63,183 nucleotides of DNA from Nitrospira sp. (GTDB lineage: Bacteria; Nitrospirota; Nitrospiria; Nitrospirales; Nitrospiraceae): positions 1 through 63,183 of the forward strand of contig VGXC01000019.1 in assembly GCA_016873495.1 (NCBI GenBank). The letters are read 5' to 3'. Made by a program: the position numbers and the translations under genes. Below the pieces are notes generated by a model that was given only the letters and a program-made list of their open reading frames with translations, was not told where the DNA came from and did no database searches. Below, piece by piece: positions 26,295-28,769 of this stretch; the first letter of the stretch is position 1, and each line of letters opens with the position of its first letter.

Positions 26295-26408
26295 CCGGCA
26301 CGACCCGCGCCGCGCCCACGTGCCCGATTGTTCCCCTCGGACCCGACTGCTAGAATGTGCGCGCATCCCCTTGTTGCACGTGACGCTCCGCACAGCCAGG
26401 ATCAGCTT

Positions 26409-28769
26409 GTGACACAGTCCCCTGAATCGTCGAATCAAGACCCGGCGTTTGCGGACGTGCTGGTTCCCCGGCACTTGCGCCGGGCCTTTACCTATCGCGT
26501 GCCGGCCCCGCTCCGCCGACAACTCATGGTCGGCAGTCGGGTCCTGGTGCCCTTCGGCCCCAGCACCGTACAGGGCGTGGTGATTGCCCTGGCGGCGACA
26601 CCGCCCCCATCCTTCTTCAAGCCGGCAGCGCTCGGAGGCCTGAAGGAAATCCTGGCGCTTGCGGATGAACAGGAGGCCGGCGTCGCCGCTCCGGATCTCC
26701 TCGATCTGACCCGCCTCGTGGCGGAACGGTATCTGACGCCCTGGGGCCAATGTCTCCGGCTGGCGCTACCGCCTTCCACGCCATCCGTCAAGCCATCCCG
26801 ATACTACCGCATCACCGACGCGGGCAAGACGGCGGTCCAGGCGGCAAGCGGATCGCACTCCGCCAAGCTCTCGGCCCAGGCGCGCGAGCTGCTCACACGT
26901 CTGGCGGCGACGCCCAGACGCAAGGGCCTGACGCTGAACACGCTTAGCCGAGGCATGGAAGGGTCGCTGACCCGCACCCTCTCGGACCTGACACGCCGCG
27001 GCCTGTTGCAGGAAGGCGCGGCGGAAGCAGCCGATTCCGGCCAGCCTCGCTCGAAGGTCCGGCGAACCGGCCGCGACCAGGCTCCCGCCCCGACAGAGCC
27101 GGACCGATCCGCCGTCGCCTTTTCCCTCCCGCCGCTCCCCTCGCGCTGGGAGAAACCCCTCCTTGCGGCCTTCAAAGATGGAGCGCACCGGCCGTGGCTC
27201 CTGCAGGCGCCCTGGGCTTCCCGCATCGCCGGCTATCTCCGCGCCGGCGAAGAGACGCTCGCCCGGCACCGCACCGTCCTCATCGTCTCTCCGGACACAG
27301 CGCGCGCCGCGGCCATCGCCGGGGCGGCGCAGGCCAAGTGGGGCAAGCGGGTGGCCCTCTTGCACAGCAACTTGGCGCCGACGGCGCGCGAAGCAGCCTG
27401 GCACAGGATCCAGGCAGGGCAGGTGTCGGTCGTGGTGGGAACGAGATCGGCCGTCTTCGCGCCCCTGACGTCCCTCGGCCTCATCTGCGTGGATCAGGAA
27501 GACGATCCCTCGCTGAAGGAGGAACAGGAGCCCCGCTACCACGCGCGCGACGTGGCCGGACAACGCGCGATACAGCAAAGTGCCCTGCTGCTGCTCGGCT
27601 CGGCCCATCCGTCGCTGGAAACCTGGCAGACGATGGCGGACGGCGCGAAGGACACACGGATCTTATCGTGGCCCGCCGAGCAACCGGCCTCGGCCAGGCT
27701 CCCGGCCATCTACGTGATCGACTTGCGTCAGACTCCCTACGGGACGGTCCTTTCTCAATCCATGCTGGACGGCATCAAAGCGGCAGTGGATGCCAAAGCC
27801 GGAGCGGTTTTGTTTTTAAACCGCAAAGGATTTGCCTCCGCGCTGCTCTGCCGGGACTGCGGCCACGCCCCACGGTGTCCGCACTGTTCCGTGTCGCTGA
27901 CCTACTACCGCCAATCCGGCACCCTGGCCTGCCGCTACTGCGGCACCTCGGCGCCGCCGCCCGACATCTGTCCGACTTGCCAGGGTGCCAGATTGGAACC
28001 GGTGGGGTCCGGCACGGAACGGCTGGAAGAGATGCTGCGCCGTCTCTTACCCCAGGCCACCATTGCCAGACTCGACCGCGACCAGGCCAGGACACAGGCT
28101 CAAGCGGATCGGCTGCGGGCGGAAGCCGTGGCGGGCAAGTGGGACATCCTTATCGGCACGCAGATGTTGTTACAAGGGTTTCCGCTCCCGAGCGTGGGCT
28201 TCGTCGGCATCGCCAATGCGGATGCGGGACTCCACGCCGCGGACTTCCGCGCCGCCGAGCGCACCTACCATGCCCTGCTGGACGCGGTCTCCCTGGCCAA
28301 GCCGGCGGACGAAGGCGGGATGGTCCTGATTCAAACGTCCCTGCCGGGACACCATGCCATCACGGCCGTGGCCCAACAGAATCCGTCGCTCTTCTATGAG
28401 CAGGAGCTGCTCTCGCGGCAGGCCCTCGGCTATCCGCCGTTCACCCACTTGATCAGCTTGCAGGTATCCGGCACACAGGCAGGAGCCGTCAAACAGGCGG
28501 CGACCTCCTGGGCCAAGCTGCTCTACCAGGCGATGCCGGCCGCCCCCAAACCGGCGCCGGGCGCGACCGAGCCGGTGACGATACTCGGCCCGGTCCCGGC
28601 CCAGCATGCGCAACTGCGAGGGCGGCACCGGTATCAGCTGCTGGTCAAAGCCGGCAGCGCGGAGCAGGCCCGCCTGACGGTGAAGGCCACGTTGGACGAG
28701 ATGGAACGCACGAGGGGGAAAAGCGGGCTGCGGTTCGACGTGGACGTGGACCCGCTGGAGATGATCTAG
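26409..28769 (+). CDS. priA: PriA-type primosomal protein with degenerate ATPase motifs
   Basis: The 786-residue product has the N-terminal 3'-DNA-binding domain (FADVLVPRHLRRAFTYRVP...GSRVLVPFG). A helicase fold follows, with a perfect four-pair zinc site (CRDCGHAPRCPHCSVSL...CRYCGT...CPTCQG) and the PriA C-terminal domain (ALGYPPF...ILGPVPA). The motifs that hydrolyse ATP are altered. The Walker A GxTGSGKT position reads LLQAPWASRIAGYL, DEEH is DQED, and the motif VI QVAGRAGRG position reads DAVSLAKPADEGG. It should bind forks but is unlikely to be an ATP-driven helicase. GTG at 26409 is chosen because AGGA lies 7 nt before it. Confidence 0.88.
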   Translation: MTQSPESSNQDPAFADVLVPRHLRRAFTYRVPAPLRRQLMVGSRVLVPFGPSTVQGVVIALAATPPPSFFKPAALGGLKEILALADEQEAGVAAPDLLDLTRLVAERYLTPWGQCLRLALPPSTPSVKPSRYYRITDAGKTAVQAASGSHSAKLSAQARELLTRLAATPRRKGLTLNTLSRGMEGSLTRTLSDLTRRGLLQEGAAEAADSGQPRSKVRRTGRDQAPAPTEPDRSAVAFSLPPLPSRWEKPLLAAFKDGAHRPWLLQAPWASRIAGYLRAGEETLARHRTVLIVSPDTARAAAIAGAAQAKWGKRVALLHSNLAPTAREAAWHRIQAGQVSVVVGTRSAVFAPLTSLGLICVDQEDDPSLKEEQEPRYHARDVAGQRAIQQSALLLLGSAHPSLETWQTMADGAKDTRILSWPAEQPASARLPAIYVIDLRQTPYGTVLSQSMLDGIKAAVDAKAGAVLFLNRKGFASALLCRDCGHAPRCPHCSVSLTYYRQSGTLACRYCGTSAPPPDICPTCQGARLEPVGSGTERLEEMLRRLLPQATIARLDRDQARTQAQADRLRAEAVAGKWDILIGTQMLLQGFPLPSVGFVGIANADAGLHAADFRAAERTYHALLDAVSLAKPADEGGMVLIQTSLPGHHAITAVAQQNPSLFYEQELLSRQALGYPPFTHLISLQVSGTQAGAVKQAATSWAKLLYQAMPAAPKPAPGATEPVTILGPVPAQHAQLRGRHRYQLLVKAGSAEQARLTVKATLDEMERTRGKSGLRFDVDVDPLEMI

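Follow-up and report, generated by a model that had tools for sequence, protein, structure and literature searches.

The window analysed here is the whole of a 63,183-nucleotide stretch, contig VGXC01000019.1 of the Nitrospira sp. assembly GCA_016873495.1. It carries a gene of the priA family (Table 1), the frame of which is also open from an alternative TTG start at 26328 to the same stop. The product scores 448.3 bits against TIGR00595, the model for the replication restart protein PriA (cut-off 230.35), which places it in the PriA family, and the profiles for the 3'-DNA-binding (PF17764), zinc ribbon or cysteine-rich (PF18319) and C-terminal (PF18074) domains are each matched over their cut-offs. 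Other, narrower PriA models give up to 502 bits, yet this lies under their high cut-offs. These matches bear out the identification as PriA, with its DNA-binding N-terminus kept, that had been made by inspection of the letters (below, the original prediction). The neighboring genes, which code for an OmpA-family protein upstream and for thioredoxin-like and DsrE-like proteins on the opposite strand, have no bearing on the PriA question.

Table 1. The priA-family gene of the window and the protein features it encodes (positions are those of the window)
Feature	Position	Strand	Basis and remarks
priA-family pseudohelicase gene (predicted)	26409..28769	+	786 aa from GTG 26409; ORF translation, TIGR00595, PF17764, PF18319, PF18074
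3'-DNA-binding domain, retained	26454..26771	+	PF17764, 79.8 bits (profile 1-96 of 96) and 74.9 bits in a second search
Degenerate P-loop region QAPWASRIAGYL	27204..27239	+	alignment; Arg in the E. coli K230 column
Degenerate motif II VDQEDDP (canonical DEEH)	27489..27509	+	alignment; third-position Glu kept
Motif III region LGSAHPS (canonical GSATP), Thr lost	27594..27614	+	alignment
Cysteine-rich region, all eight zinc cysteines	27849..27980	+	PF18319, alignment
DFRAAER, conserved lobe-2 element, kept	28242..28262	+	alignment
Degenerate motif VI region DAVSLAKPADEGG	28281..28319	+	alignment; both arginines lost, Leu in the R584 column
C-terminal domain, retained	28434..28754	+	PF18074, 67.6 bits, profile 1-95 of 95

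The motor motifs were compared with those of E. coli K-12 PriA (P-loop GVTGSGKT, DEEH, GSATP and QVAGRAGR). All three signatures of an active PriA helicase, namely the Walker A sequence GxTGSGKT, the DEEH box and the motif VI sequence QxxGRxGR, are replaced in the window protein, which displays the failed Walker A and B boxes that define a PriA pseudohelicase. In the P-loop, where the alignment is uncertain by one residue, A-PWASRIA stands in place of GVTGSGKT and the loop is one residue shorter. The replacing strings (APWASRIAG, DQED and, for the motif VI region, DAVSLAKPADEGG) agree with the original prediction, and the zinc site that it described as intact has 8/8 cysteines (at 481, 484, 490, 493, 508, 511, 521 and 524 in the 786-aa numbering), each of them unchanged across the 33 sequences of alignment A1. 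A helicase-dead PriA, as then proposed, is strongly supported at the level of sequence, and the protein is most likely unable to use ATP; motif loss alone is not proof that no ATP is bound. An AlphaFold2 model built with a 33-sequence alignment has the fold of a complete PriA (pLDDT 85.8, pTM 0.82), and its five best matches among solved structures are PriA chains, the top one being 8fak_H of a PriA-PriB-fork complex (Z 31.1, rmsd 4.0, 625 aligned). From this model and its matches, both helicase lobes are predicted to fold still.

The genome of origin, which is 99.97% complete, was searched with PF17764 and TIGR00595 for a second, canonical PriA that would have spoken against the original prediction, and none was found, PF17764 giving a single match and TIGR00595 a single one over its cut-off. 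A weaker TIGR00595 match in this genome (C16) was rejected as a second PriA since it is RecG, and another (C32, 1150 aa) is probably Mfd, judging by its length and its score with the RecG model. Three other genomes of the genus that were searched code for PriA proteins with 91, 80 and 77% identity and no stops, which share the same DQED and close variants of the other two replaced motifs; the loss can therefore not be put down to chance or to base-calling error.

Pairwise comparisons among four species of the genus (Nei-Gojobori with Jukes-Cantor) give a dN/dS of 0.22-0.26 for the whole gene, which is under purifying selection. By part, the values are 0.30-0.37 for lobe 1, 0.31-0.49 for the linker and winged helix, 0.06-0.10 for lobe 2 after the zinc region and 0.12-0.19 for the C-terminal domain. 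Constraint is not uniformly stronger in the retained parts, as the 3'-binding domain (0.18-0.46) and the zinc region (0.09-0.45) indicate. Within the genus only the old P-loop looks relaxed (0.28-0.57), and the constraint on the stretches that replace motif II (0.06-0.10, one pair identical) and motif VI (0.11-0.23) suggests a structural role for both.

The alignment of PriA across the phylum that the original prediction had proposed found the loss throughout the order Nitrospirales. The order set comprises 58 loci from distinct genomes in four families, 51 of them from the 59 matching genomes and 7 from a wider search; the other 8 of the 59, one of which (G049) is a fragment, are outside the residue-level reading. 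A Walker A motif occurs in none of the 58 loci, a single one (L026) having a lysine in the aligned column without the surrounding motif, and all eight cysteines are present in 57, the exception (L047) stopping at a contig edge. In the motif II columns the aspartate of D320 is kept in 25/58, the glutamate of E321 in 11/58 and that of E322 in 55/58; the last figure and the constraint on the motif II and VI stretches argue that the ATP cleft retains some role. The same motif loss is seen in the complete genome of Nitrospira moscoviensis NSP M-1 (L161), so it is not an assembly artefact. In a panel of named records, for which 80 loci were kept from at least 594 matching stretches and which overlaps the main genome set (L154 with G022:C1, L199 with G061:C43), 70 loci among the matches listed are intact and 10 degenerate, all of the latter in records labelled Nitrospira, Nitrospirae or Nitrospirales; for one degenerate locus (L160) the Walker A columns are blank, and its state was read from motifs II and VI. 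In family f4, three loci (L049, L050 and L153) have DEEH, with Walker A and motif VI gone. As f4 is the first branch within the order, both in the PriA tree and, through one genome, in the rpoB tree, it suggests an order of decay in which motif II was probably the last to go.

Beyond the order, family f9 of the same class (2 loci) is also degenerate, and 7 loci from six further families of that class (f5 to f8, f10 and f11) have intact motifs. A second degenerate set in the phylum comprises 42 loci from 13 families (L088-L117 and L134-L145), with the eight cysteines in 42/42. The P-loop region of this set has no deletion in 39/42 rows, and glutamate occupies the lysine column in 37/42; the groups were split by the motif itself, so uniform counts within them are partly by construction. 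No family read mixes intact and degenerate states. Within the intact group, one locus (L127, genome G237, family f38) has the Walker A sequence GIAGSGKT and DEEQ, but its motif VI sequence, QLAEKVGT, is without both arginines, which makes it a possible intermediate of motor loss.

The number of losses was read from two trees. A PriA tree of 144 of 147 rows, made by a quick method with SH-aLRT support only and leaving out the incomplete L013, L030 and L047, unites Nitrospirales with f9 (99) and gathers the second set in a clade of its own (100). It needs two changes of state, although its well-supported branches alone force one, and it contains long branches. A more careful rpoB tree of 30 genomes recovers Nitrospirales (100/99), and also the second clade (100/98), which sits within a group of intact relatives; here two changes are forced by the starred branches, and 0% of 200 bootstrap trees place the intact rows on one side of a branch. 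If the ATPase site is never regained, there were therefore at least two losses in this sample. The union of Nitrospirales with f9 has only 85/85 in the rpoB tree, where the G077 row sits on a long branch, and f9 could be a third independent loss.

Conservation was further compared column by column between 115 canonical rows and 64 Nitrospirales rows, with L013, L030, L047 and L160 left out. Columns at least 95% uniform in the canonical rows (n=84) were taken as conserved, and as lost where this fell below 20%. In Nitrospirales 13/16 such columns are lost in motifs I, II and VI vs 10/68 elsewhere, and in the second clade 15/16 vs 12/68, both groups being motif-defined and the difference thus partly by construction. 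Arginine fills the P-loop lysine column in 54/64 Nitrospirales rows. Mean identity within Nitrospirales is 0.37 in lobe 1 and 0.49 in lobe 2, vs 0.50 and 0.54 in canonical PriA, whereas the likeness of the 3'-binding, zinc and C-terminal domains is not reduced; as the canonical rows span more taxa, these identities are a guide only. Nitrospirales has newly fixed residues at a few positions, among them C115, L118, L629 and W701 (786-aa form). Residues that contact PriB in E. coli are found at D438 in 58/64, T482 in 10/64 and H483 in 8/64 Nitrospirales rows, and are variable in canonical PriA too. The positions taken for the SSB-tail pocket (82, 86, 370, 697 and 701), in a numbering that is probably wrong, are not on conserved columns of the canonical rows.

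The partner genes named in the original prediction were searched for. PriC was found over cut-off in 0/60 genomes, with one sub-threshold match, and in a set of 10 genomes, one of them from an intact-PriA lineage, DnaT was found in 0/10 and PriB over cut-off in 0/10. Weak matches to the PriB model TIGR04418 occur in 10/10, all of them under cut-off and probably SSB. DciA is present in all 60 genomes searched, intact and degenerate alike. In E. coli, RecG has been argued to restrain the PriA helicase (PMC4752480), so it might be dispensable where PriA is dead. A loss of RecG alongside the dead PriA is not seen in this order: RecG is over cut-off in 25/25 Nitrospirales and f9 genomes, and in 52/60 overall. 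As DciA, PriC and RecG do not distinguish intact from degenerate lineages, none of them explains the motor loss. In five genomes from both kinds of lineage (G062, G081, G116, G143 and G191) the best RecG-model matches reach about 345-380 bits, a level like that of Mfd, and RecG may be missing there.

PriA itself seems to be missing from some genomes. Among 9 suspects, chosen since their PriA seemed missing or broken, the PF17764 3'-binding domain was not found in 8, three of them in Nitrospirales, and was found in all of 3 controls; some of the suspects without this domain belong to families with intact PriA. If these absences are real, priA is dispensable in some genomes. Further genomes, many of them less complete, have only weak matches to TIGR00595. 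In one genome of family f1, to which the window's genome also belongs (G155, 2.0 Mb, 99% complete), PriA was not found by TIGR00595 or PF17764; its assembly has a gap there, or else this small genome has lost the pseudohelicase.

Several known PriA proteins resemble that of the window. PriA of E. coli (8fak, 6dcr) and that of structures 4nl4 and 6dgd, which we take to be from Klebsiella pneumoniae, are alike in whole-length fold, sequence match and the eight zinc cysteines, but differ in having the P-loop (GVTGSGKT in E. coli), DEEH and the GRAGR arginines, and are known active helicases. Actinobacterial PriA, to which the original prediction pointed, also lacks helicase motifs to our knowledge. 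The best of the NCBIfam PRK14873 models, presumably derived from actinobacterial PriA, gives 190 bits on the window protein, under cut-off and far below its scores with general PriA models. The likeness to Deinococcus radiodurans PriA includes the failed Walker A and B boxes and the change of the P-loop lysine to arginine; that species, too, has no clear priB or dnaT homologue (PMC4504706). Judged against the published description of that protein, which comes from another phylum, the Nitrospirales protein has in addition lost the arginines of motif VI and the glycines of the P-loop.

Experiments on these relatives bear on what a PriA of this kind might do. The K230R change abolishes the ATPase of E. 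coli PriA, ATPase-dead priA alleles of that species support both viability and primosome assembly on model substrates, and D. radiodurans PriA, with no measurable ATPase and negligible unwinding, binds ssDNA, forks and DnaB (PMC4504706). In the E. coli fork complex, a pore round the lagging-strand ssDNA is framed by the zinc region, lobe 2 and the C-terminal domain, and a DnaB-loading assay was run with K230A variants (PMC10175261). Given that the pore-forming parts are kept in Nitrospirales and the ATP site is lost, the protein most likely serves to recognise forks and to reload DnaB on them without unwinding. It is thus quite probable, in our view, that the only PriA found in this genome is a pseudohelicase acting as an ATP-independent fork-recognition platform at which DnaB is reloaded, probably with DciA. 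Its DNA-binding surfaces would most likely recognise abandoned forks and D-loops, and a pore holding the lagging-strand ssDNA would be built from the zinc region, lobe 2 and the C-terminal domain. The replicative helicase DnaB might then be reloaded there on forks already bearing a single-stranded lagging arm, with other enzymes supplying any unwinding needed. For Nitrospirales such loading without unwinding, which the original prediction had implied, is inferred, and so are the handover from PriA to DnaB and any role that DciA has there.

Could the gene instead be a decaying priA, functionless and en route to loss? The helicase lobes are indeed less alike than in canonical PriA, and the 3'-binding domain was not found in most suspects vs present in all controls, albeit with only three of those 8 in the order. 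Such decay is hardly credible in view of the low dN/dS in the genus, the zero stop codons in the matches listed, the eight cysteines of 57/58 loci, and the domains outside the lobes, which are as alike as those of canonical rows or more so. A departure from replication restart to a new job, such as that of a structural or regulatory binder of DNA junctions, would fit the newly fixed positions and the PriB, PriC and DnaT that were not found; we regard it as unlikely, as the domains that remain are the ones that recognise forks and form the pore, the genome yielded no other PriA to serve restart, and DnaB binding persists in the Deinococcus pseudohelicase (PMC4504706).

A weak, atypical nucleotide-binding role, with arginine replacing lysine in the P-loop column, appears very unlikely. 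Besides the lysine, the flanking glycines and the residues T231, E321, R584 and R587 have largely disappeared, and the lack of ATPase in both E. coli K230R and D. radiodurans PriA described above speaks against it, even though the arginine recurs in most Nitrospirales rows, the same change has been reported for Deinococcus-Thermus (PMC4504706) and the stretches replacing motifs II and VI are constrained.

The reading as an ATP-independent platform for DnaB reloading does not introduce a new kind of protein, as a PriA pseudohelicase is already known and was shown by experiment in D. radiodurans (PMC4504706). The new elements are the lineages concerned, how deep the loss goes in the order, the second clade, and the fact that much the same residues were lost more than once. 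No report of a dead PriA in Nitrospira or Nitrospirae was found in the literature searched, nor any mention of one in the available portions of PMC5720831 and PMC3290774. More tentatively, and with less than even confidence, PriA might have given up its helicase function repeatedly and irreversibly to become a fork sensor that works without ATP. In addition to Deinococcus-Thermus, this would have happened twice in a single phylum, once in Nitrospirales together with one sister family and once in the 13-family clade. The ATP-site residues that go are largely the same in each case, and the parts of the ssDNA pore stay; this pore might pass ssDNA straight to DnaB-DciA in DciA-bearing lineages where PriB, PriC and DnaT were not found, and PriA unwinding would then be an optional extra rather than the core of restart.

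The conserved helicase motifs of PriA have been read as a sign that unwinding pays (PMC4504706). Two clades of one phylum manage without them, and one of these takes in each of the four families that were sampled from the order of the nitrite-oxidising Nitrospira. Such a natural separation-of-function PriA may offer a route to the roles of PriA besides unwinding, and to the enzyme that prepares blocked forks.
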